Source of the DNA: Fictibacillus arsenicus
Lineage (GTDB): Bacteria > Bacillota > Bacilli > Bacillales > Fictibacillaceae
Direction of reading: 5' to 3'
Length of the DNA: 64,000 nucleotides
Assembly: GCF_001642935.1 (NCBI RefSeq)
Contig: NZ_CP016761.1
Coordinates: 3,906,001 to 3,970,000, forward strand
Under the pieces are notes generated by a model, which worked only from the letters and a program-made list of their open reading frames with translations, searched no databases and was not told where the DNA came from. Shown one piece after another: positions 4,946 to 18,187 of the stretch (the first letter of the stretch is position 1; each line of letters starts with the position of its first letter). The position numbers were made by a program, and so were the translations under genes.

Positions 4946-4983
4946 TTCCTAGAGTGACCAAAATCATTTCAGGAGGTTCTAGT

Positions 4984-6345
4984 ATGCAATTTTCTAAAAA
5001 GGCTTTAACCGTTGCACTTGCATCTACGCTTGCCGTAAGTGGCTTAGCTTTCAATAATGCTTCTGCAGAGAACCAAGACAAAAACGAAATCCGCAACGTT
5101 ATCTTTTTAATCGGTGATGGCATGGGTCCAACTTACACAACAGGATACCGCGCACTTAAAGATGACCCAAAAACACCAATGATGGAAGACACAGCGTTTG
5201 ATAAGCATTTGGTTGGTATGCAGTCAACATACTCTTCAGATGAAAAAGAGAGTATAACAGATTCAGCAGCTGCAGCAACATCCATGTCAGCAGGTATCAA
5301 GACATATAATGGTGCCATTGCAGTAGATATGGAAAAACAAGACGTAAAAACTGTTTTAGAGCAAGCAAAGGAAGATGGTAAGTCAACTGGATTAGTTGCT
5401 ACTTCTCAGATTAACCACGCTACTCCTGCTGCTTTCGGTTCTCATGATGAATCGCGTGAGAATTATAATGAAATTGCAAATGATTACTATGATGATATGA
5501 TTGACGGCAAGCATAAAGTCGATGTGTTATTAGGTGGCGGGACGAGCTATTTTGTTCGTAAAGACCGTGACATTACAAAAGAATTTAAAAAAGACGGCTA
5601 TTCTTATGTAACTTCTAAAAAAGAAATGCTCAATGATAAAAACGAACAAATTCTTGGTCTTTTTGCTCCTAAAGGCTTGGATAAAAAGATTGACCGTCCT
5701 GCAGAACAGCCTTCACTTAAAGAAATGACAAATTCTGCACTAGATCGTTTAAACAAGAATGATAAAGGTTTCTTCTTAATGGTTGAAGGTAGTCAAATCG
5801 ACTGGGCTGGACACGATAATGATGTAGTTGCAGCTATGAGCGACATGGAAGATTTTGAACAAGCTTACCAGTCTGCAATTGAATTTGCTAAAAAGGACAA
5901 GCACACATTAGTTATCGCTACAGCTGACCACTCAACAGGCGGTATGGCAATGGGCCGTGACGGTGAATACCAGTGGGATCCTTTAGCGATTAAAGCTGCT
6001 AAGAAAACACCTGACTTCATCGCAAAAGAAATTGCAGAAGGTGCACCAGTTGAAGAAACACTAAAGAAATATATTGATCTTGAGCTTACACCAGAAGAAG
6101 TTCAATCTGTAAAAGACGCTAAAGAAAAGAGCGGCGATGTATTAGAAATCGATAACGCTATTGAAAAAATCTTTGACCTTCGTACAGGTACAGGCTGGAC
6201 GACTGATGGACACACTGGCGAAGACGTAACAGTTTACGCTTATGGTCCTGGCATGGAGAACTTTACTGGTAAGATCGACAATACGGATACAGCTAAAGAA
6301 ATCTTTGCTATTCTTAAAGAGAGCAAATCTGCTATCCAAAAATAA
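4984..6345 (+). CDS. Secreted alkaline phosphatase
   Basis: 453 residues; releases phosphate from phosphomonoesters outside the cell. The signal peptide (KKALTVALASTLAVSGLAFNNASA) ends near residue 29. Metal-binding IGDGMGPTY follows soon after. The catalytic pair Asp93-Ser94 lies in DSAAAATSMSAG, and Asp315-His316 lies in ADHSTGG. A C-terminal HTGEDV supplies another metal histidine. ATG 4984 has AGGAGG seven bases upstream; an in-frame ATG at 4954 is rejected because it has no such site and would bury the signal peptide. The PhoP box upstream predicts induction by phosphate starvation. It resembles B. subtilis PhoA/PhoB; I cannot say which. Confidence 0.93.
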   Translation: MQFSKKALTVALASTLAVSGLAFNNASAENQDKNEIRNVIFLIGDGMGPTYTTGYRALKDDPKTPMMEDTAFDKHLVGMQSTYSSDEKESITDSAAAATSMSAGIKTYNGAIAVDMEKQDVKTVLEQAKEDGKSTGLVATSQINHATPAAFGSHDESRENYNEIANDYYDDMIDGKHKVDVLLGGGTSYFVRKDRDITKEFKKDGYSYVTSKKEMLNDKNEQILGLFAPKGLDKKIDRPAEQPSLKEMTNSALDRLNKNDKGFFLMVEGSQIDWAGHDNDVVAAMSDMEDFEQAYQSAIEFAKKDKHTLVIATADHSTGGMAMGRDGEYQWDPLAIKAAKKTPDFIAKEIAEGAPVEETLKKYIDLELTPEEVQSVKDAKEKSGDVLEIDNAIEKIFDLRTGTGWTTDGHTGEDVTVYAYGPGMENFTGKIDNTDTAKEIFAILKESKSAIQK

Positions 6346-7210: not shown

Positions 7211-7239
7211 TTGCCATTGAAATATAATTAATTTATTAT
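7211..7239 (+). promoter_or_regulatory. Probable promoter of the ugp-type operon
   Basis: TTGCCA at 7211-7216 and TATTAT at 7234-7239 are separated by 17 bases. Transcription would start near 7246, ahead of the terminator-like leader at 7270-7372. Confidence 0.5.
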
Positions 7240-7269: not shown

Positions 7270-7372
7270 TTATGGTCTTGGGGTAGAGATGAGGAGAACC
7301 CTGTGATCAATAAAATGTATTACATTTTTTGTAGTACTTTTTATTGCTCATGGGGATTTATTTATTTTTCTA
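7270..7372 (+). promoter_or_regulatory. GlpP-type terminator/antiterminator leader of the ugp-like operon
   Basis: GGTAGAGA, then GGAGAACCCTGTGA ending at 7306, matches the leader on the minus strand at 14150-14245 nearly base for base. ACCCTGTGA pairs with TCATGGGG at 7348-7355 (two G-U pairs), enclosing an AT-rich hairpin (7308-7346), and is followed by a U-rich stretch. This is a terminator whose 5' arm is part of the conserved motif. A GlpP-family antiterminator gene is nearby. GlpP is known to relieve such terminators in Bacillus glp leaders when glycerol 3-phosphate is present; the link here is inferred. Confidence 0.7.
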
Positions 7373-7400
7373 GAAAAAGCAACTATAAGGAGGAGTATGA

Positions 7401-8675
7401 ATGAAGTTCAAGGTTTTAGCACTGTTTACTGTATTACTGGTTTTTCTTGCAGCTTGCAGCAGCGGCGGATCAAAAGATGAAGTTACAGAAATAGACTTCT
7501 ATTTTCCTGTTGCAGTCGGTGGTGATGTCGCTAAGATTGTGGATGATTTAGTTGCAGATTTTGAAAAAGAAAATCCCGATATTAAAGTTAACGCTAGATA
7601 TGGAGGCAGTTATTCTGAAACAATGACTCAGGTTATGGCTGCCGTTCAAGGCGGAAACCCTCCTGAATTAGCAGTATTATTCTCCATTGACCTCTTCACC
7701 TTGTTGGAGAATGATGTCATTGAGGAAATGACTCCTTTGTTTGATGAAAAATATTTCAATGATTTTTATGATGCTTTTATGGCAAATTCCTCCATTGGCG
7801 ATAAGGTTTATAGCCTTCCTTTCCAAAGAAGTACAATTGTTCTCTACTACAACAAAGATGCTTTCAAAAAAGCTGGACTTAATCCAGACGCTCCTCCAAA
7901 AACATGGGATGAATTAGTCGATTACAGCAAAAAGCTAACGTTGAATGGCGGAAAGGATCAGTGGGGTCTAGAGATTCCTAGTACTGGTTATCAATATTGG
8001 ATGCTTCAAGCATTAGCACTGCAGACAAAGGAAAATATTATGTCCGAGGATGGAAAAGAGACGTATTTTAATGCACCGCATACGAAAGAGGCTATGCAAT
8101 TTTATGTTGATTTAAGTAAAAAACACAAGGTTATGCCTGAGGGTACAATCGAATGGGCAACGGTTCCATCTGACTTCTTAAGTGGGAGAACAGCAATGAT
8201 GTACCACACTACCGGTAACTTAACCAACGTAAAAACGAATGCGGAATTTGATTTTGGTGTAGCTTACCTCCCTTCTAATAATCAATATGGATCTCCTACG
8301 GGCGGCGGAAATATTTATATGTTCAAAGACATCCCTAAAGAAAATAAAGATGCAGCTATTAAATTCATGAAATTTTTAACAGAGCCTGAACGGGTTGCTC
8401 AATGGTCCATTGATACCGGTTATGTTGCTACAAGAAAATCTGCTTACGAGACGGACGCATTGAAAAAATATGTAGAAGAATTTCCACAGGCAATCATTGC
8501 CCGCGAACAATTAGAATACGCAGACAGTGAGTTAGCTACCTACCAAAACGGAGAAGTTCAAAAAATCTTCAATGATGCCATCCAGTCGATTTTAACCGGT
8601 AAAAGCAATGTAGATGAGAGTTTGGATAAAGCGCAGAAAGATGCCGAGAAGGTTTTAGAACCATTTAAGGAATAA
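7401..8675 (+). CDS. ABC importer solute-binding lipoprotein, glycerol-phosphate type (UgpB-like)
   Basis: 424 residues, family 1 extracellular solute-binding protein. The signal peptide ends in the lipobox LAACSSGG (Cys near residue 20), so it is lipid-anchored on the outer face. SYSETMTQVMAAVQGGNPPELA and PFQRSTIVLYYNKDAFKKAGL are typical of UgpB and sugar-binding relatives. It is first in a five-gene operon with two permeases and two hydrolases. No ATPase is encoded, so a shared ATPase elsewhere must power the importer. The ligand is inferred to be a glycerophosphodiester or glycerol 3-phosphate from the GlpP-type leader; a sugar is the alternative. Confidence 0.8.
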   Translation: MKFKVLALFTVLLVFLAACSSGGSKDEVTEIDFYFPVAVGGDVAKIVDDLVADFEKENPDIKVNARYGGSYSETMTQVMAAVQGGNPPELAVLFSIDLFTLLENDVIEEMTPLFDEKYFNDFYDAFMANSSIGDKVYSLPFQRSTIVLYYNKDAFKKAGLNPDAPPKTWDELVDYSKKLTLNGGKDQWGLEIPSTGYQYWMLQALALQTKENIMSEDGKETYFNAPHTKEAMQFYVDLSKKHKVMPEGTIEWATVPSDFLSGRTAMMYHTTGNLTNVKTNAEFDFGVAYLPSNNQYGSPTGGGNIYMFKDIPKENKDAAIKFMKFLTEPERVAQWSIDTGYVATRKSAYETDALKKYVEEFPQAIIAREQLEYADSELATYQNGEVQKIFNDAIQSILTGKSNVDESLDKAQKDAEKVLEPFKE

Positions 8676-8763
8676 ATGAGAACAATTGCCGGGAAGCTTA
8701 GATTAATAATCGTGTTAATTTGGGCTTCCTTTTCACTAAGGATAGGAGGTTGTCTTTTACCAA

Positions 8764-9666
8764 ATGGATAACACACAGAAAACGTCCAAGAAAAAGCTAA
8801 GTTTTAGCTTTAAGCAAAATATGTTTGCCTATTTACTGTTGCTGCCGTCATTTATCTTCCTATCGTTATTTACATTTTATCCAACACTTAAATCTATTCA
8901 TCTAAGCTTTTATAGTGGTCCAATGACTAGGCTTCAATTCTCTGGTTTGGATCAATACAAAGAAGTCTTCACAGATGAGATTTTTAAAAAAGTTATGATG
9001 AATAACATTATTTTTATAATCGGAACTGTTCCTACAAGTCTATTTTTAGCTATGTATTTAGCCATTTGGCTAAATAAAAAGATGAAAGGAAGCGCCTTAC
9101 TCAGAACATCATTTTTTTATCCAACCGTTATCCCTCTTATTGCAGTAGCGAATATATGGCTGTTCATATATACCCCTCAATATGGACTGCTGGCTAAATT
9201 CCTGCAGGCATTTGGTGAAAACGGTCCGAACTGGTTAGGAAATCAAAGTACAGTAATGATAGCTATGATTATTATGATCATATGGAAAGATACTGGATTC
9301 TTTATGATTTTTTATTTAGCCGGTTTGCAAAATTTGCCGAAAGATGTTTACGAAGCTGCCATTATGGAAGGAGCAAAACCATTTCAAATCTTTCGCCACA
9401 TCACCTTCCCTTTGCTTATGCCTACAACACTATTCGTTATGATTGTAGCCATCACAAATGCATTTAAAAATGTAGACCATTTATACATCATGACAAAGGG
9501 TGGTCCTGATAACGCAAGTAATTTATTACTCTATCATATTTATGAGGCTGCATTTACCAACTGGGATCTTGGCAAGGCTGCCGTACTAACCGTTGTGTTA
9601 ATTGTTGTTCTCTTAAGTATTACGGCATTCAATTATCTATTTTTAGATAAAAAAATTCATTACTAA
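8764..9666 (+). CDS. ABC importer permease (UgpA-like)
   Basis: 300 residues with six predicted membrane segments. The permease signature EAAIMEGAKPFQIFRHITFPLL near residue 200 contacts the ATPase. The first segment follows a basic N-terminus (KKKLSFSFKQN). The AGGAGG upstream lies about 14 bases from the ATG, unusually far, yet no other in-frame start is available. It follows the binding-protein gene by 88 bases and precedes the second permease by 17. It forms a heterodimer with the next gene product. Confidence 0.85.
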   Translation: MDNTQKTSKKKLSFSFKQNMFAYLLLLPSFIFLSLFTFYPTLKSIHLSFYSGPMTRLQFSGLDQYKEVFTDEIFKKVMMNNIIFIIGTVPTSLFLAMYLAIWLNKKMKGSALLRTSFFYPTVIPLIAVANIWLFIYTPQYGLLAKFLQAFGENGPNWLGNQSTVMIAMIIMIIWKDTGFFMIFYLAGLQNLPKDVYEAAIMEGAKPFQIFRHITFPLLMPTTLFVMIVAITNAFKNVDHLYIMTKGGPDNASNLLLYHIYEAAFTNWDLGKAAVLTVVLIVVLLSITAFNYLFLDKKIHY

Positions 9667-9683
9667 GAAAGGAGGGAGTTTCT

Positions 9684-10496
9684 TTGTATAAAAAGATTAA
9701 CTTTACAATCATTATTTTGTTAGGAATCGTATTTTTCATTCCTTTGTTATGGGTATTTATAACCTCCTTTTCTACAAGTAAAGAAGTAATAGGCAGTTCC
9801 TTTCCACTCTGGGTTTCGAATCCAACCTTTCAAAATTATATAGATGCCTGGAATGCTGCTCCCTTCCTTACTTATTATTTCAATACGTTTGTAATCGTAT
9901 TTGGTATTTTAATTGTTCAGTTATTTACTATTACTCTTGGTGCGTATGCTTTTGCAAGATTAAACTTCAAAGGAAAGAACGTCTTGTTTATCTTATTCTT
10001 GCTGCAATTGATGATTCAGCCCGAGATCCTGCTATTTCCAAACTATCAGATTATGAGTCAATTGGGATTAGTTGATTCAAAGCTAGCTGTCATGCTGCCT
10101 TACTGGGCATCAGCATTCGGTGTCTTCTTATTAAGACAAACATTTAAACAGGTCCCTTTTGATTTGGACGAAGCCTCTAGAATTGATGGTTGTAAATGGT
10201 GGCAAACGTTATGGCATGTCTATATTCCATCCGCAAAACCAACATATATAGCATTTGCACTTGTATCTGTAAGTCACCACTGGAGTAACTTTATGTGGCC
10301 ATTAATCATTACAAATTCAGATGAAAATCGGCCATTGACCGTCGGGTTAGCATTGTTTGCTCAATCCTACGAAACAGGGGCTCAATGGGGGATGGTAACA
10401 GCAGGAACCGTTCTGGTCATTTCTCCTTTATTAATTGCATTCTTTATTTTTCAAAAACAATTTGTATCAAGCTTCATGCATTCAGGAATTAAATAG
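9684..10496 (+). CDS. ABC importer permease (UgpE-like)
   Basis: 270 residues, six membrane segments. The EAA loop (DLDEASRIDGCKWWQTLWHVYIPSAKP) lies near residue 165. Translation starts at TTG 9684 behind GGAGGGAG. It is the second subunit of the channel, and its stop is only 12 bases from the next start. The family covers carbohydrate and glycerol-phosphate importers of the CUT1 class. Confidence 0.85.
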   Translation: MYKKINFTIIILLGIVFFIPLLWVFITSFSTSKEVIGSSFPLWVSNPTFQNYIDAWNAAPFLTYYFNTFVIVFGILIVQLFTITLGAYAFARLNFKGKNVLFILFLLQLMIQPEILLFPNYQIMSQLGLVDSKLAVMLPYWASAFGVFLLRQTFKQVPFDLDEASRIDGCKWWQTLWHVYIPSAKPTYIAFALVSVSHHWSNFMWPLIITNSDENRPLTVGLALFAQSYETGAQWGMVTAGTVLVISPLLIAFFIFQKQFVSSFMHSGIK

Positions 10497-10508
10497 GGCG
10501 GTGTAAAA

Positions 10509-11252
10509 ATGGAGATTCACTTTCTAGGTACCGGAAGTGCCTATCCAGGTAAAGAACGGGACAATACCTCAATCTGTATTTCCAGTAATGATTATCATGT
10601 GTTAATTGATGTGAGCGGTAATCCTTGCAGGAAACTGAAACAGATCAATGTAGCATTAGAAGACCTTGATTCGGTAATCTTCACTCATTTTCATATTGAT
10701 CATATATATGGGCTTCCTTCTTTATTATGGGGAATGTGGCTCGAAAACAGACAGAAACCACTGACGATTTATTGTCATGAGGAGAATCTAGCAAAGCTTA
10801 ATCAGTGGTTAAGTACGATGGAAGTATATGAATGGGGGATAAAATTTACGCTTCATATCAAAACGTTCAGCGGCGGATTCCCTGAAGAACTGCTAAAGAC
10901 TCGAGATATAAGTATTTCGGTATTTCCAGCCATCCATTCTGTACCGACCATTGGGTTAGAAGTAACGGGGGGAAATAAAACCATTGTCTATTCGAGTGAC
11001 AGTCAAGTAAACTCACATATCCGAACCTATCAGCATATTGATGTGTTAATTCATGAAGCAACATCAGCGATTAAATTAGAATCTAACCATACTAGCTTAA
11101 CTGAAATTGCGGAATCCTATGATTTAAACGCAATCGATAAAGTGATTTTGGTGCATTTAAGTGATCACCAGCCTTATGATGAAGAACTATCCAGATTAAA
11201 TCTGGATAATAAAATTCAAAAAGCTGAAGAAATGATGTGCATTTCTATATAA
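10509..11252 (+). CDS. Metallo-beta-lactamase-fold hydrolase (RNase Z/phosphodiesterase type)
   Basis: 247 residues. The fold signature HFHIDHIYGLP (residues about 60-70) gives the HxHxDH metal site. IHS near 140, SSDSQ near 165 and the late VHLSDHQ supply further ligands. The N-terminus MEIHFLGTGSAYPGKERDNTS is like RNase Z-type phosphodiesterases. It lacks the exosite arm of true tRNase Z as far as I can see. Its place inside an importer operon suggests it cleaves the imported compound, for example a glycerophosphodiester. That is inference. Confidence 0.8.
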   Translation: MEIHFLGTGSAYPGKERDNTSICISSNDYHVLIDVSGNPCRKLKQINVALEDLDSVIFTHFHIDHIYGLPSLLWGMWLENRQKPLTIYCHEENLAKLNQWLSTMEVYEWGIKFTLHIKTFSGGFPEELLKTRDISISVFPAIHSVPTIGLEVTGGNKTIVYSSDSQVNSHIRTYQHIDVLIHEATSAIKLESNHTSLTEIAESYDLNAIDKVILVHLSDHQPYDEELSRLNLDNKIQKAEEMMCISI

Positions 11253-11369
11253 CTAAATATGAAACAAGGATAGAGAACAGGAGAATCCCTTGGGCATTGA
11301 AAAATCCAATTATTAAAATTGGTTATTTCGTCAGGCTCAAGGGATTATTTTATTATAACGGAGGCAGAG

Positions 11370-12155
11370 ATGAAGGAAATCAAGGGATATATCTTTGACT
11401 TGGATGGGACGATTTATCTCGGAAATCAATTAATTAAAGAGGCGGACACTGTTATTAGAAACCTTCAAAAAGAAGGAAAGCAAATTTTGTTCCTGACGAA
11501 CAAAACGATTGAATCGAGACGAAAATATGTGGAAAAATTAAAGAATTTCAATATTAATGTGACCATAGACAATATCCTGAATCCAACCGTAACCTTAATA
11601 AACTATTTAAAAACGAATCATCTCCGATCAATGCTTTATATTATTGGTGAACAGATCATCAAAGATGAAATCGGACTTGAACGTTTTCCATTAGCTAATA
11701 CCCCTGAAGAGACAGATATAGTAATCATTTCTTGGGATCGGGATTTCCATTATGACCATTTGAATTTTGCTTATCAAGCGATTAAAAACGGTGCTTTAAC
11801 AATTGCGACCAATCCTGACCGAACTTGTCCTGTTGAATATGGAGAGGTTCCTGATTGCGCGGGAATGATTGGTGCTATAGAAAGTGTTACAGGAAAAAAG
11901 ATAGATATACAAATCGGAAAACCGTCTATTTTAACCATCGAGGCAGCCCTAAACATTCTTAACCTGGCACCAGAAGAATGCATCATGATTGGAGACCGCC
12001 TAGAAACTGATATTCGAATGGGAATAGAAGCAGGAATGAAAACAGCACTTGTACTTTCAGGGGTTACGCAAGCCAATGAAGTGCCTTCATCTGAATGGCA
12101 GCCGGATTATGTCTTCTCTTCAGTAAAAAGTCTATTATTTAATAAAGTACTATAA
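11370..12155 (+). CDS. HAD-IIA family phosphatase (NagD/AraL-like)
   Basis: 261 residues. Motif I FDLDGTIYLGN near the N-terminus, motif II TNKT, and motif IV IGDRLETDI near residue 210 with a large C2-type cap between. These are marks of sugar- or glycerol-phosphate phosphatases of the NagD class. ATG 11370 follows GGAGGCAGAG; the longer reading from 11319 has no ribosome site. It closes the importer operon, 117 bases after the MBL gene. A role in dephosphorylating the product, such as glycerol phosphate, is a guess from context. Confidence 0.82.
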   Translation: MKEIKGYIFDLDGTIYLGNQLIKEADTVIRNLQKEGKQILFLTNKTIESRRKYVEKLKNFNINVTIDNILNPTVTLINYLKTNHLRSMLYIIGEQIIKDEIGLERFPLANTPEETDIVIISWDRDFHYDHLNFAYQAIKNGALTIATNPDRTCPVEYGEVPDCAGMIGAIESVTGKKIDIQIGKPSILTIEAALNILNLAPEECIMIGDRLETDIRMGIEAGMKTALVLSGVTQANEVPSSEWQPDYVFSSVKSLLFNKVL

Positions 12156-12156
12156 C

Positions 12157-12186
12157 AAAAGGAGAACGGATATCCGTTCCCCTTTT
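12157..12186. terminator. Bidirectional terminator between convergent genes
   Basis: Thirty-base palindrome with one mismatch: AAAAGGAGAACGGAT against ATCCGTTCCCCTTTT. T runs occur on both strands. It serves both the HAD gene and the lamin-tail gene. Confidence 0.88.
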
Positions 12187-12190
12187 TGTT

Positions 12191-14104
12191 TTATTCAATA
12201 TCCCTGTCATCTTTCATTAATGTCTTTAAATCAATTTTCAGCATTCTGTCCATCGGGTAAGTTGTGGTATACCGGTATTTATTAGCTCCTGATTCAAAAA
12301 GAACATAAAGTTCTTTTTTCACCGTTACAATTCCCTCAGGCATTGGAATTGCTTCAATACTCGCCCGAGGTTTGGCCGTCGCTCCGTCAAGGAACCATAA
12401 AGGAACCTCTTTTCCATTCACCATAACCGAACTGTGTTGATCTTCTTTTAATGGATGTCCATAACGATAAAGGACACTATCATTTCCTCTGCCATAAGAG
12501 GTGCTCAGTGCGATTCCCATCTTTTGAACAATTGCACCTTGGACCTTACCCGTAGTCGATAAAACATAATCTGGTGTTGCTGTTTGAGAAGGATCTCCAT
12601 TCCAATGGTCTTTCGATAACATATCATTGTTTCGTTCAAGATCATACCCTACCATCCAGGCAAAGTGCATTTCACCGTCACGGTTCATAATGTGATGTGA
12701 TGGATCAGTAGGGTACGCACTTGCTTCATAAAACTCTCCTACCCACAGGATTCCTTCATCATATACATTATAAGCAGCTTCCACTGGCAGAGGGATCTGG
12801 TTGATGAACTGAATTTCAGCATTGTTTTCAGCTGTGACAAGGTCACTAATTTTTAATGGGAAAAGGAATTGCTCAGAAGCAATCCATACATGATCCCGGC
12901 TGACCGTAATTCCGCCTGCGTGGCCTGTGTAAGGCGTACCATCCGTATTATATAATAAGACGGATTTAATTAATTTTTCGCTCGTTGCATCAGTTACAGT
13001 AAGTGTTCCTGGCCTCCCATCATCTAAATAATTGACAGTCAGCAGCCAATCCTTTTTCTTATAATACGTAATTCCCTGTGGAACAAGATCCTGAACCAAT
13101 CCTGGAATGACTGGTCCGTCTTCACTTATATCCCAAAGTCCTTGATACTTAGGGTCTTTAATATGAGGTGACCGTTCTTCCTGTGTAATAATTTGATGGG
13201 TCGGTCTTGCCATAACAGGTTCTGACTTCTCAGATACATTTCCTGAAGTATCTTCTGCAGCTATTTGAAGCATATAATCCGTGTTCCCTATAAGAGAAGA
13301 AAGTGTAAATTTGTTGTCTGATGGAGCGACTGAGTACTCTAATACCCCATTTTTATAGATATGGTAACGGTAAATGTCAGACTCCGGGTTCAGATCCCAT
13401 GTCAGCGAAACTTCACCTGCCCCAGCATGAGAGGTAATATTTGACGGAGCCATTGGAGGCTCTTCATCTAAAACTGGTCTTGGCGGTGCCTGATCTGGAA
13501 CGATCCATCCTGGTGTCGGAATTTGGTTGCCACCCAATTTTTTCATAGTCAAACTTCCGTCTTCAGGGTAACCAAATGTGATTGATTTTTTTAAGGATAC
13601 ATCATCACCTGTATATATTGCCTTCACTACTTCCTTGCCTTGAGAGTCCAATACTGAAACTGTTTGAGTCCCGGAGTTAACCAATCCACTGATATCTTCT
13701 AGTACTCGCAGTTGATCTTCGCCAACATACTTATTTTTGTATGAAGAAAAATAGTTATGGTTGAAGGCTTCTAATGAGATCGGCTGAATTTCACCTCTCC
13801 TTGTCCAAAAAAGATGTGTTTCCCATGGTTCAATGATTAAGGAACTCTCAATCTCTTTGTCCCATCCTTTAGTTTTAATGCGATAGCCCTCTAAATCCAT
13901 CGTTTCACCACTATTATTATAGATTTCCAAATACTCAAACGCGTCCAAACCAGCATAATTATCCGTATTCGGTATTAACTCTGTAATTAACAATGATGGA
14001 CCCGTTTCTAAGGCATTAGACATCCTGGCCGGTGCTACTGAAAAAACACTCACAAAAACCATAAAAATCGCAACTGAATACATCCTCCAATTTTTACATT
14101 TCAC
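12191..14104 (-). CDS. Secreted lamin-tail and fibronectin III protein with a large unassigned C-terminal domain
   Basis: 637 residues. A signal peptide (about residues 1-32) is followed by a lamin-tail domain (about 36-170: ITELIPNTDNYAGLDAFEYL, later DLEGYRIKT). A fibronectin III domain follows (about 215-300: PPMAPSNITSHAGAGEVSLTW). The last 330 residues (LWDISEDGPVIPGLVQDLVP onward, with GHAGGITVSRDHVWIASEQ) suggest a beta-propeller-like fold that I cannot name. It starts at GTG 14104 behind AGGAGG. Its leader matches that of the ugp-like operon, so it is probably controlled by GlpP and released to act on a glycerol-phosphate compound such as teichoic acid. No enzyme activity can be assigned. 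Confidence 0.75.
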   Translation of the reverse strand: MKCKNWRMYSVAIFMVFVSVFSVAPARMSNALETGPSLLITELIPNTDNYAGLDAFEYLEIYNNSGETMDLEGYRIKTKGWDKEIESSLIIEPWETHLFWTRRGEIQPISLEAFNHNYFSSYKNKYVGEDQLRVLEDISGLVNSGTQTVSVLDSQGKEVVKAIYTGDDVSLKKSITFGYPEDGSLTMKKLGGNQIPTPGWIVPDQAPPRPVLDEEPPMAPSNITSHAGAGEVSLTWDLNPESDIYRYHIYKNGVLEYSVAPSDNKFTLSSLIGNTDYMLQIAAEDTSGNVSEKSEPVMARPTHQIITQEERSPHIKDPKYQGLWDISEDGPVIPGLVQDLVPQGITYYKKKDWLLTVNYLDDGRPGTLTVTDATSEKLIKSVLLYNTDGTPYTGHAGGITVSRDHVWIASEQFLFPLKISDLVTAENNAEIQFINQIPLPVEAAYNVYDEGILWVGEFYEASAYPTDPSHHIMNRDGEMHFAWMVGYDLERNNDMLSKDHWNGDPSQTATPDYVLSTTGKVQGAIVQKMGIALSTSYGRGNDSVLYRYGHPLKEDQHSSVMVNGKEVPLWFLDGATAKPRASIEAIPMPEGIVTVKKELYVLFESGANKYRYTTTYPMDRMLKIDLKTLMKDDRDIE

Positions 14105-14149
14105 TTTTTTTCCTCCTTAGATTAAGTTCTCAAACTCATTGATCTTGAA

Positions 14150-14245
14150 CTTTTCAAAACAAACAAACCCCATGACAATTAAAAGTATTACAAAAATGCA
14201 ATACAGATAATGTCACAGGGTTCTCCGCTTCTCTACCTGAGGACT
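14150..14245 (-). promoter_or_regulatory. GlpP-type terminator/antiterminator leader of the lamin-tail gene
   Basis: On the minus strand, GGTAGAGA and GGAGAACCCTGTGA (within 14213-14237) repeat the motif of the ugp-like leader. AACCCTGTGA pairs over ten bases with TCATGGGGTT (14164-14175), followed by TGTTTGTTTT. The inner hairpin GTATTGC/GTAATAC also matches its counterpart with compensating changes. This is a good intrinsic terminator whose 5' arm overlaps the shared motif. Confidence 0.72.
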
Positions 14246-14351: not shown

Positions 14352-14918
14352 CTATAATTCTAAATTCCATAAGCTTGGATCGCCGGACGATACAGCTAAA
14401 GCCCCCGCTCTAAGTCCGTTTAAGATTTCCTCTTTATTACTAATTAACCCTCCTGCAATGATTGGCAGGTTTGTTATCTTCGTCAATTCGTCAATAACAG
14501 TTGGCATCAGACCTGGTAATACTTCAATGGCATCCGGCTTACAATTATGAGCAATTTCTATTCCTTTTTTTATTGCATTTCTATCGATAAGAAATATGCG
14601 CTGAATTGTCATTAACCCTTCTTCTTTTGCATATTTGATAAGATTGCTTTTTGTTGTAATAATGCCCTGTGGTTTCCAAACTTTTGCTATATATGTTATA
14701 GCACTTCTTGTATTCGCAAGTCCCTCAATAAAATCCATATGTACGAATGTCATTTTCCCGGCCCTTTTTAATTGTTCTATATAATCTTTTGTTGTAATAA
14801 TATCTCCAGTTAAAATAAAAGTAATATTTGCTGTTGAATCAATTGCCTTTCTTATATCTTTTTCATTTTTTATTGAGGAAATGACTTGTGATTGAACAAT
14901 ATCTACTATGTTAACCAT
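14352..14918 (-). CDS. glpP: GlpP-family glycerol-3-phosphate-responsive antiterminator
   Basis: 188 residues over one TIM-barrel-like domain. MTFVHMDFIEGLANTRSAI, the PQGIITTKSNLIKYAKEEGL stretch and the late DAIEVLPGLMP and IIAGGLISNKEEI match B. subtilis GlpP along the full length. GlpP binds glp mRNA leaders with glycerol 3-phosphate and prevents termination. ATG 14918, seven bases after GAGGGGG, is preferred; a longer start at 14933 would include that site. The gene lies upstream of the lamin-tail gene. Two leaders in this island (7270-7372, 14150-14245) are its likely targets. No glpF, glpK or glpD lies in the window, so it may be a second, dedicated GlpP. Confidence 0.88.
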   Translation of the reverse strand: MVNIVDIVQSQVISSIKNEKDIRKAIDSTANITFILTGDIITTKDYIEQLKRAGKMTFVHMDFIEGLANTRSAITYIAKVWKPQGIITTKSNLIKYAKEEGLMTIQRIFLIDRNAIKKGIEIAHNCKPDAIEVLPGLMPTVIDELTKITNLPIIAGGLISNKEEILNGLRAGALAVSSGDPSLWNLEL

Positions 14919-15091
14919 CTCTAACCCCCTCATATCTTTGCCTTCATCTTAATTTTTGTCCTCTTTATTAATTTGATTGTTATCTACTTATTCCTCTATT
15001 TTTCTAAATCCAATGAAGATCTAATTGACATCTTATTTCTCGGGAAATTTTTGTCGAAATTTTGTAACTGATAGTCTTTCTATAACGTTCT

Positions 15092-15367: not shown

Positions 15368-15390
15368 GGGAAACTGTTGAATTTATGTAT

Positions 15391-15430
15391 TTCGCGGTTC
15401 GAAAACTCCCGCGTTAACAAAACTAGGAGG
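15391..15430 (+). promoter_or_regulatory. preQ1-I riboswitch
   Basis: CGCGG at 15393 pairs with CCGCG ending at 15413, and the loop carries TTCGAAAACTC. The tail TTAACAAAACTAGGAGG matches the pseudoknot-forming A-rich tail of the small preQ1-I class, as in the Tte type. The tail includes the AGGAGG of the next gene, so binding of preQ1 should hide the ribosome site and block translation. Confidence 0.88.
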
Positions 15431-15436
15431 AATTTT

Positions 15437-16135
15437 ATGTTTAATTTTTATTTTGGTGTAGGTTTTGCACTTGTGAATTTTGTGCTTTTCTTACTGTGCT
15501 ATAAGTGGTTTGGGAAAGCAGGTTTATTCGCTTGGATCGCTGCCGCAACTATCTTAGCTAACTTACAGGTCGTAAAAACGATCGAGATGTTCGGTCTTGT
15601 TATGACACTCGGAAACGTTATTTACGGCACGATCTATTTAGCAACGGATTTGCTAAACGAAAAATACGGAGAAAAAGAAGCTAAAAAAGCAGTTTGGTTT
15701 GGATTCTTCACACTTGTTATGACGACAATTATCATGCAGCTCGTTCTTGTATTTGAACCGCATGAAAGTGATTTTGCTCAAACGCATCTTGAAGCTCTTT
15801 TCGGTCTCATGCCGCGTTTGGCACTAGGAAGCTTGACAGCTTATCTTATCAGCCAATACCTTGATGTTAAGCTATTCGCTAAACTAAGAGAGAAGTTTTC
15901 AAGACCTGATCAGCTTTGGATTCGAAACAACGGCAGCACGATGGTGAGCCAGCTGATCGACACATTTATCTTTTGTATGATTGCATTCGCTGGAGTCTTT
16001 TCTTGGGACGTATGGCTTCAAATCTTCTTCACAACGTATGTGATTAAGTTTTTCGTATCTGCGGCATCTACACCATTTATTTATATAGCAAGAGGCTTCA
16101 AACACCCAGAAGAAGCACAAAAACCAGGCAATTAA
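15437..16135 (+). CDS. Queuosine precursor transporter (YhhQ/VUT family)
   Basis: 232 residues with six or so membrane segments; imports a queuosine precursor such as preQ0/preQ1. YGTIYLATDLLNEKYGEKEAKKAVWFGF is the family signature. ATG 15437 follows AGGAGGAATTTT, which belongs to the preQ1 riboswitch tail; the longer reading from 15377 runs through the riboswitch and is rejected. The stop codon lies in a terminator hairpin. The riboswitch makes the substrate assignment firm. Confidence 0.93.
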   Translation: MFNFYFGVGFALVNFVLFLLCYKWFGKAGLFAWIAAATILANLQVVKTIEMFGLVMTLGNVIYGTIYLATDLLNEKYGEKEAKKAVWFGFFTLVMTTIIMQLVLVFEPHESDFAQTHLEALFGLMPRLALGSLTAYLISQYLDVKLFAKLREKFSRPDQLWIRNNGSTMVSQLIDTFIFCMIAFAGVFSWDVWLQIFFTTYVIKFFVSAASTPFIYIARGFKHPEEAQKPGN

Positions 16136-17294: not shown

Positions 17295-17323
17295 TCCTGC
17301 CTGTTTGCATGAGGCAGGCAGGA
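17295..17323 (+). promoter_or_regulatory. Inverted repeat in the glpQ leader
   Basis: TCCTGCCTG and CAGGCAGGA form a 9-bp arm around an 11-base loop, 33 bases before the glpQ start. It has no T run and so is not a terminator. It could be an operator or an mRNA-stabilising hairpin. It does not resemble the GlpP-type leaders. Confidence 0.45.
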
Positions 17324-17356
17324 TACACACATAACCAGTGCAAAGGGGATGGAAAG

Positions 17357-18187
17357 ATGAACGTAAAGAAAATGACAGCCGCTTCACTTCTTTCAATGGG
17401 ACTTATCGGTTCATTATTCACTACCGCAACATTCGCTTATGAAGCATCAGATCAAGTGGAAACAGTTGCTCACCGTGGTGCGGCAGGATATGCACCAGAG
17501 AATACAATGGCTGCTTTTCAAAAAGGTGTCGATATGAAAGCAGATTATATTGAGATTGATGTACAGCAGACAAAAGATGGGGAACTTGTGGTCATCCATG
17601 ATGTGACACTTGATCGTACAACAAATGGCACTGGATATGTAAAAGATCATACGCTCGAAGAAATTCGCCAGCTGGATGCAGGAAGTTATTTCGCACCAGA
17701 ATTTGCTGGAGAAAAAGTTCCTACTTTTGAGGAAGTACTTGATGAATTCCGAGGTAAAACAGGTATTCTAATTGAATTAAAAGCTACTTATTATTATCCT
17801 GGCATTGAACAGAAAGTGACTGAAGCATTAAAGGAACGCAACATGCATCTTCCTAACAACGAGAAAATTATCGTTCAGTCTTTTGAATTTGAATCTATGA
17901 AAAAGATGGACGAGCTTTTGCCAACCGTCCCTGTTGGTGTGCTAACAGGACGTGCAACTGATTTAAGCGAAGAAAAACTGAATGAATTTGCGACATATGC
18001 GGAGTATGTGAACCCGAGCAAATCCCTAGTTAACTCTTCCCTTGTAAATGAAGTTCATGAGCGTGACATGGGTATCATGGCTTGGACTGTACGTAAAAAA
18101 GAAGAAGTTCAGCCTCTGCTTGATGCCGGCGTAGATGGTATTATTACAGATTATCCTGATTATCCTCCAGCACATAAAGCTGAATAA
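17357..18187 (+). CDS. glpQ: Secreted glycerophosphodiester phosphodiesterase
   Basis: 276 residues. A signal peptide ends near AFA at residue 28. The GDPD signature follows: VAHRGAAGYAPENTMAAFQKGVDMKADYIEIDVQQTKDGELVVIHD, with the catalytic histidines in HRG and IHD and the metal ligands in EIDVQ. The C-terminus GIITDYPD is also typical. ATG 17357 after GGGGATGGAAAG is chosen; the upstream in-frame start at 17309 lies inside the leader hairpin. The enzyme frees glycerol 3-phosphate from glycerophosphodiesters or teichoic acids outside the cell. This fits the import genes at 7.4-12 kb. Confidence 0.93.
   Translation: MNVKKMTAASLLSMGLIGSLFTTATFAYEASDQVETVAHRGAAGYAPENTMAAFQKGVDMKADYIEIDVQQTKDGELVVIHDVTLDRTTNGTGYVKDHTLEEIRQLDAGSYFAPEFAGEKVPTFEEVLDEFRGKTGILIELKATYYYPGIEQKVTEALKERNMHLPNNEKIIVQSFEFESMKKMDELLPTVPVGVLTGRATDLSEEKLNEFATYAEYVNPSKSLVNSSLVNEVHERDMGIMAWTVRKKEEVQPLLDAGVDGIITDYPDYPPAHKAE

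Follow-up and report, generated by a model that had tools for sequence, protein, structure and literature searches.

Candidate antitermination leaders beside a paralogous glpP gene in Fictibacillus arsenicus

A 64,000-nt stretch of the Fictibacillus arsenicus chromosome (contig NZ_CP016761.1, positions 3,906,001 to 3,970,000; hereafter the window) carries a gene for a GlpP-like antiterminator close to leader sequences that contain intrinsic terminators, and this arrangement raises the question of whether the leaders are regulatory switches and which protein would operate them. An initial annotation had pointed to two such leaders, here called A and B, and had proposed them as targets of the GlpP-like protein. 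Both are real, and a third, leader C, had been overlooked. We propose, at a probability of roughly 0.8, that all three are GlpP-type, protein-dependent antitermination switches whose dedicated regulator is most likely the adjacent GlpP-like protein, hereafter GlpP2.

Leader A precedes an operon for a Ugp-like ABC transporter, leader C lies between genes for an MBL-fold hydrolase and a HAD phosphatase, and leader B lies between glpP2 and the gene for a secreted-type protein with lamin-tail and fibronectin III domains (the LTD protein; Table 1). The motifs ascribed to leaders A and B in common are indeed there, the two being 79% identical across 90 alignment columns; leader C is 62-63% identical to A and B. 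In all three, an intrinsic terminator stands ahead of a gene and has its 5′ arm within the conserved motif. The terminator described by the initial annotation, with ACCCTGTG as its 5′ arm and CATGGGG as its 3′ arm, was confirmed by folding: the predicted energies are -30.9 kcal/mol for leader A and -33.0 kcal/mol for leader B (range for A, B and C, -28 to -33 kcal/mol), the z-scores against dinucleotide shuffles are -6.4, -5.8 and -5.2 for A, B and C, and 0 of 200 such shuffles were as stable as the leader for either A or B. The terminator stem also covaries, with double changes at three of its ten pairs. What that description missed is a competing hairpin that uses the same terminator arm.

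This hairpin, a putative antiterminator, is shared by most of the leaders that we collected and consists of a short stem and a loop of the form RGAGA-N3-RGAGA; its 3′ arm is the 5′ arm of the terminator. In leader A the loop AGAGATGAGGAGA is flanked by TGGGGT on its 5′ side and by ACCCTG, the terminator 5′ arm, on its 3′ side, and these two flanks can pair. Fragments from the 5′ end fold to the antiterminator at -4.9 kcal/mol for leader A and at -1.5 to -4.4 kcal/mol for leader C, depending on the fragment end. Because these energies are so small beside those of the terminator leaders, formation of the antiterminator should need a protein. A further 5′ hairpin, seen by eye upstream of some leaders of substrate-binding protein (SBP) genes, was set aside because leader B lacks it.

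Pairing between the antiterminator arms was assessed across 96 leaders from the fetched loci, all having the loop [AGT]GAGA-N3-[AGT]GAGA and a terminator. Leaders were left out of this set if both pentamers begin with T, if the spacer is not 3 nt long, if the terminator is weaker than -22 kcal/mol or if they duplicate another leader exactly; the spacer rule leaves the glpF leader of F. arsenicus itself outside it. At least three Watson-Crick pairs can form in 89 of the 96 leaders, compared with 60% when arms are exchanged between leaders, and the mean number of pairs, 3.71 as against 2.80 after exchange, was reached in none of 5000 permutations, a test that ignores the relatedness of the leaders. 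The 65 leaders that are unique at a coarse level gave a mean of 3.63 versus 2.68 (0/5000 permutations). Some loci had been found with a covariance model, R1 (see below), whose profile takes in the upstream arm and so biased their selection; with these loci removed, 69 of 75 leaders still formed at least three pairs, with a mean of 3.83 versus 2.71 (0/5000). When the upstream arm was shifted by 4 nt the effect was gone (510/5000 permutations as high). Between genera and gene classes the two arms change together, giving stem types such as GGGT/ACCC, CAAGGA/TCCTTG, CTATGGCT/AGCCATAG, TGTGA/TCACA and TGGTC/GACCA. In Oceanobacillus a stem of AACTCTAT/ATAGAGTT encloses a loop with AGAAA, as judged by eye outside the permutation test.

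A second covariance model, R2, was built from 23 leaders outside Fictibacillus, namely 21 of 33 leaders carrying a strict form of the motif and two later finds (the L022 HAD and L032 SBP leaders); its predicted structure holds only seven pairs, so it works mainly by sequence. It returned leaders A, C and B as the sole strong matches in the 4.06-Mb genome, with rough E-values of 1.1e-16, 3.2e-11 and 1.5e-10, followed by the antisense strand of leader A at 0.03 and then by a match at 1.7. The exact motif TAGAGA-N1-10-GGAGA occurs at 12 sites, and a terminator is present at three of them, which are A, B and C; the other nine were dropped for their weak folds (-11.6 to -25.1 kcal/mol) and the lack of a terminator by eye. 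The related motif GGAGA-N3-4-GGAGA occurs at 23 sites, and a terminator below -22 kcal/mol is present at just two of these, the glpD and glpF leaders. Counted by terminator-bearing sites, the genome therefore has two GGAGA-first and three AGAGA-first leaders. Searches of Rfam 15 gave no family at leaders A, B and C at E-values up to 1, and none at the leaders in six further loci at E-values up to 0.1.

The assignment of the adjacent gene to the GlpP family was borne out: the protein matches PF04309 over its full length (217.7 bits, cut-off 27; profile positions 1-173 of 173) and also matches the solved GlpP structures 3kts (E 7e-33) and 1vkf (E 6.1e-22). The gene does not, as first stated, sit between two of its targets; it lies beyond leader B, upstream of it and in the same direction, so that glpP2, leader B and the LTD gene follow one another, with 118 nt from the glpP2 stop to the start of the leader B loop. 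Two PF04309 genes of the host genome score above the cut-off, and a further, weak match falls below it. The other of the two encodes GlpP1, a GlpP of canonical type that is 37% identical to GlpP2; it stands before genes presumed from their sequences to be glpF, glpK and glpD. In a tree of 84 GlpP proteins (two of 86 rows being left out, namely L080, which duplicates the GlpP2 of the window, and L028, a short open reading frame), GlpP1 and GlpP2 fall on opposite sides of a branch with 100/100 support. GlpP2 is thus a diverged paralogue, with residues specific to its clade; the closest relative by GlpP2 that bears a name is Fictibacillus phosphorivorans, at 93% identity. A comparison of 31 GlpP1 and 30 GlpP2 rows revealed 24 near-invariant residues common to both paralogues, including glycines near the C-terminus, and their retention in GlpP2 favours a related phosphate ligand.

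Other genera have the same elements at the three corresponding positions. A scan for GlpP2 yielded 36 loci, eight of which keep all seven genes (those for GlpP2, the LTD, HAD and MBL proteins, the two permeases and the SBP) within the DNA examined. With the strict motif 33 leaders were recovered, A, B and C of the window among them, each standing ahead of an SBP, HAD or LTD gene, and all scans together found a leader candidate at 29 of the 36 loci, those at L040 and L049-L051 with weak model E-values (0.16 to 0.47). At L043-L048 (Oceanobacillus) and L049-L051 (other Fictibacillus), GlpP2-side regulators accompany leader candidates before a different binding protein, which at L043, L046 and L049 is followed by an ABC ATPase-like gene (by eye); the loops of L043-L051 have diverged to AGAAA or to AGAGA-CCA-TGAGA. 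Locus L032 is labelled Chryseobacterium and groups with Mesobacillus in the GlpP tree; that genome is probably mislabelled.

A search of 398 Bacilli genomes with model R1, built from 26 of the 33 strict-motif leaders and applied with strict filters that lose weak matches, returned 25 matches in 21 genomes, three in F. arsenicus itself and 22 in 20 others. A GlpP2 protein search of the same genomes gave a match at E 1e-20 in 291, among which were all 21 leader-bearing genomes; in the 107 genomes lacking such a match this strict search found no leader. For 18 of the 22 matches elsewhere a GlpP-family gene is no more than 160 nt away, and for 20 it is no more than 5.3 kb away (L075 by coordinates). 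The tandem loop is present in 21, and the genes downstream of these are glpD (13), HAD (2), Ugp-like SBP (2), and glpF, GDPD, GlpP and an MgtC-like gene followed by glpD (1 each). That 18 of the 22 stand near GlpP and 13 before glpD identifies the element as a GlpP-type leader. Across all loci we collected 102 leaders, whose next genes encode GlpD (41), LTD (16), a Ugp-like SBP (11), HAD (11), another SBP (8), GlpF (7), MFS (2), GlpK (2), and GlpT-like, MgtC-like, GlpP and GDPD proteins (1 each), the names GlpT-like, MFS and MgtC-like being presumptive; 52 of the 102 thus precede GlpD, GlpF, GlpK, GlpT-like or GDPD genes. As GlpP, GlpD or model matches had guided the choice of these loci, and five of the reference proteins (GlpT-like, the second SBP, MFS, GDPD and MgtC-like) were taken from genes already behind leaders, the tally shows exact placement rather than an unbiased census, and it is in part a circular result that no leader went unassigned.

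The same loop design, mostly as GGAGA-N3-GGAGA, also stands before glpF, glpD and the GlpT-like gene. When another 28 GlpP loci from across the class were examined, 15 of them had candidates; 14 of these 17 candidates form at least three pairs, with stems such as TAATGG/CCATTA. The L194 match and the second L198 match look like chance, and L198 repeats the L079 leader. At L068 (1514, +) a GlpP gene stands behind a GGAGA-type leader and is followed by a HAD-like gene (by eye), which suggests autoregulation. The proposal that the window leaders are GlpP-type targets is supported by this survey, in which genomes of other genera carry the element beside GlpP and before glpD, glpF, GDPD, HAD and ABC-transporter genes; the motif is thus found ahead of transport and glycerol-phosphate genes in other GlpP-bearing genomes.

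We infer from these features how GlpP2 would bind the RNA, what it would sense and which leaders each paralogue would read. In the absence of inducer, the arm ACCCUGUG (A and B) or AUCCCUUG (C) would pair downstream to form the intrinsic terminator and the gene would be silent. With a glycerol phosphate, probably sn-glycerol 3-phosphate, GlpP2 would bind the tandem purine pentamers AGAGA-N3-GGAGA in the loop of the short competing hairpin, whose 3′ arm is the terminator arm, and would hold that arm in the antiterminator so that transcription continues. The second pentamer is paired with the U-rich tail when the whole leader is folded, and a protein bound to the loop would therefore make the terminator shorter as well; bound GlpP2 is predicted to stop this pentamer from extending the terminator stem. 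Leader A would gate the Ugp-like uptake system and the MBL-fold hydrolase, leader C the HAD phosphatase, perhaps as an internal second gate of that gene string, and leader B the LTD protein. Control of glpF-glpK and glpD would fall to GlpP1, by way of related leaders that have GGAGA as their first pentamer.

Several observations weigh against this model. The 5′ fragment of leader B folds otherwise and its antiterminator is weak, although four pairs, CAGG/CCTG, are possible. Fewer than three pairs can form in seven of the 96 leaders (L021 (16179), L049, L050, L065, L084, L094 and L101), and the AGAGA-first leaders alone show a small covariation excess (99/5000 permutations as high) because most of them carry GGG/CCC. 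Seven of the 36 GlpP2 loci have no leader within the DNA examined: L026, where the contig ends, L035, L037, L038 and the clostridial loci L053, L054 and L055, in which neither pattern nor model searches found one. One R1 match (L070) has no GlpP nearby, and another (L074), probably a chance match, stands before a gene that seems unrelated. Finally, when each protein is paired with its nearest leader, the first pentamer begins with A or T in 34 of 38 GlpP2-side cases and with G in 10 of 13 GlpP1-side cases, an imperfect separation that leaves cross-talk with GlpP1 possible. The exceptions weaken a strict pentamer code for paralogue specificity, which we had considered.

Two alternatives to the GlpP2-dependent switch survive best. 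The leaders might be read by GlpP1 or by both paralogues, with GlpP2 redundant or otherwise employed: GlpP1 is present in the same genome, both leader classes have the same architecture, and AGAGA-first leaders occur at some GlpP1-side loci (L101, L103 and L104). We consider this improbable, though worth keeping in view, because glpP2 adjoins leader B and its neighbourhood in relatives carries the three leaders, because 34 of the 38 GlpP2-side proteins have an A-type leader nearest to them, also in genomes where a single GlpP match was found, such as G285 and G040, and because glpF and glpD of F. arsenicus itself have G-type loops. The second alternative concerns the signal, in that GlpP2 may sense glycerol 2-phosphate, cyclic glycerol phosphate or an imported glycerophosphodiester and not sn-glycerol 3-phosphate. 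The depth of the GlpP1/GlpP2 split would agree with such a change, as would the regulated genes, which encode an uptake system, an MBL-fold hydrolase and a HAD phosphatase and not glycerol 3-phosphate oxidation; the near-invariant residues held in common with GlpP1, and the GlpP2-side homologues that stand before glpD in family f37, argue in the opposite direction and make this, too, a doubtful reading. For the family as a whole we can also entertain the tentative idea that a single RNA code, a pair of RGAGA pentamers with 3 nt between them in the loop of a covarying antiterminator hairpin, is recognized across the GlpP proteins, and that duplication gave a second, insulated channel of GlpP2 and AGAGA-first leaders, which senses a glycerol-phosphate compound other than that of GlpP1 and governs a separate scavenging regulon in the same cell.

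It is very improbable that the leaders are ligand-binding riboswitches or targets of an unrelated protein: the tie to GlpP2 is drawn from sequence and the conserved loop could bind something else, but that loop has just 13 nt, no Rfam family matches the leaders at E-values up to 1, and the R1 matches adjoin GlpP genes, with none found by the strict search in the 107 genomes that lack a GlpP match. Least credible of all is that they are plain constitutive terminators kept through recent duplication, since the likeness of A and B, which would suit this, is set against their recurrence at the same positions in other genera and compensatory changes in both the terminator and the antiterminator stems.

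The SBP and the two permeases have UgpB, UgpA and UgpE as their best NCBI models, every score being below cut-off, and only the Ugp-like gene among those of the window indicates glycerol phosphate by itself; most likely the genes serve to import and cleave glycerophosphodiesters or related glycerol phosphates. The operon (7401-12155, +) encodes a binding protein and two permeases with no ATPase gene among the listed genes, and a shared ATPase may therefore be used. For the HAD gene, the ATG at 11370, which follows GGAGG, is a likelier start than the listed TTG, which lies inside leader C. In a Virgibacillus relative of the LTD protein (L035 790-4842, -; 29% identity) there is a calcineurin-like phosphoesterase domain, which hints at what LTD proteins may do in this setting. 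Promoter sites like the candidate ahead of leader A number two in the stretch as against a mean of 2.3 in shuffles (consensus scan), and promoter scans found no promoter of their own for leaders B and C on the right strand outside the leader. The cluster is flanked by genes for a glycerophosphodiester phosphodiesterase (17309-18187, +) and an alkaline phosphatase (4954-6345, +), which would suit glycerophosphate scavenging; the genome-wide R2 search gave no leader match ahead of either. A PreQ1 riboswitch (RF00522) at 15388-15432 (+), scoring 40.1 bits and so just above the gathering score of 39, precedes a gene for a Vut_1-family transporter (15377-16135), and the TTG listed as the start of that gene overlaps the riboswitch.

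Table 1. Positions in the window of the three leaders, their predicted structures and the neighbouring genes.
Feature	Position	Strand	Basis or remark
Candidate promoter of leader A, TTGCCA-17-TATTAT	7211..7239	+	10/12 consensus matches; consensus match only
Leader A, predicted conditional terminator ahead of Ugp-like ABC operon	7279..7366	+	motif, fold, covariance model
Leader A antiterminator hairpin, TGGGGT / loop AGAGATGAGGAGA (7285-7297) / ACCCTG	7279..7303	+	5′ fragment fold -4.9 kcal/mol
Leader A terminator, ACCCTGTG ... CATGGGG (7349-7355), then U-rich tail	7298..7372	+	fold
ABC substrate-binding protein (SBP), nearest UgpB	7401..8675	+	UgpB model 187 bits, below cut-off 411
ABC permease, nearest UgpA	8764..9666	+	below cut-off
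ABC permease, nearest UgpE	9684..10496	+	below cut-off
MBL-fold hydrolase, RNase Z / PhnP-like; possibly phosphodiesterase	10509..11252	+	
Leader C, between MBL and HAD genes	11265..11355	+	motif, fold, covariance model
Leader C antiterminator, CAAGGAT / AGAGAACAGGAGA (11272-11284) / ATCCCTTG; terminator 3′ arm 11338-11345		+	
HAD-IIA phosphatase	11370..12155	+	open reading frame listing starts at TTG 11319
LTD protein, secreted-type by eye; lamin-tail and fibronectin III domains	12191..14104	-	
Leader B, predicted conditional terminator between glpP2 and LTD gene	14157..14241	-	motif, fold, covariance model
Leader B loop AGAGAAGCGGAGA	14234-14222	-	antiterminator CAGG/CCTG weak
GlpP2, paralogous GlpP antiterminator	14352..14933	-	PF04309

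A switch of this kind is known; what is not described in the literature that we found is a paralogous GlpP with three dedicated leaders and a covarying hairpin across the family. Our search of the open literature found no GlpP antiterminator hairpin sequence, no GlpP paralogue with its own regulon and no role for GlpP in Ugp-like transporters; subscription papers of the 1990s were outside this search, and parts may be in print there. The covarying hairpin offers mutagenesis a precisely defined candidate recognition site, the presence of both paralogues in one genome allows a direct test of which protein recognizes which RNA, and vaguely named genes gain predicted functions in glycerophosphate scavenging.

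Antitermination of the Bacillus subtilis glycerol genes by GlpP has been known since the 1990s, and the BglG/LicT/SacY antiterminators act on RAT hairpins. B. subtilis GlpP, which acts on the glpD, glpFK and glpT leaders, offers the closest likeness, the loop and stem design being that of the glpD and glpF leaders of F. arsenicus itself, which we compared in place of the B. subtilis leaders. In contrast to that system, there is here a second, diverged GlpP with three probable leaders of its own, which stand before genes for a Ugp-like transporter, for hydrolases and for a secreted-type protein; the first pentamer is AGAGA and not GGAGA, and one leader lies inside a gene string. A review states that GlpP binds 'the antiterminator' and also treats GlcT, SacY, SacT and LicT (PMC7430163). 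The likeness with the BglG/LicT/SacY group is that a protein stabilizes a hairpin overlapping the terminator 5′ arm. GlpP2 differs from that group in matching only PF04309, with no CAT-PRD protein or PRD domain found by Pfam, and in its loop sequence and signal. HutP and TRAP, RNA-binding regulators that the review also covers, likewise recognize short repeated purine-rich RNA motifs, whereas here two pentamers stand 3 nt apart in a hairpin loop and the protein is unrelated.

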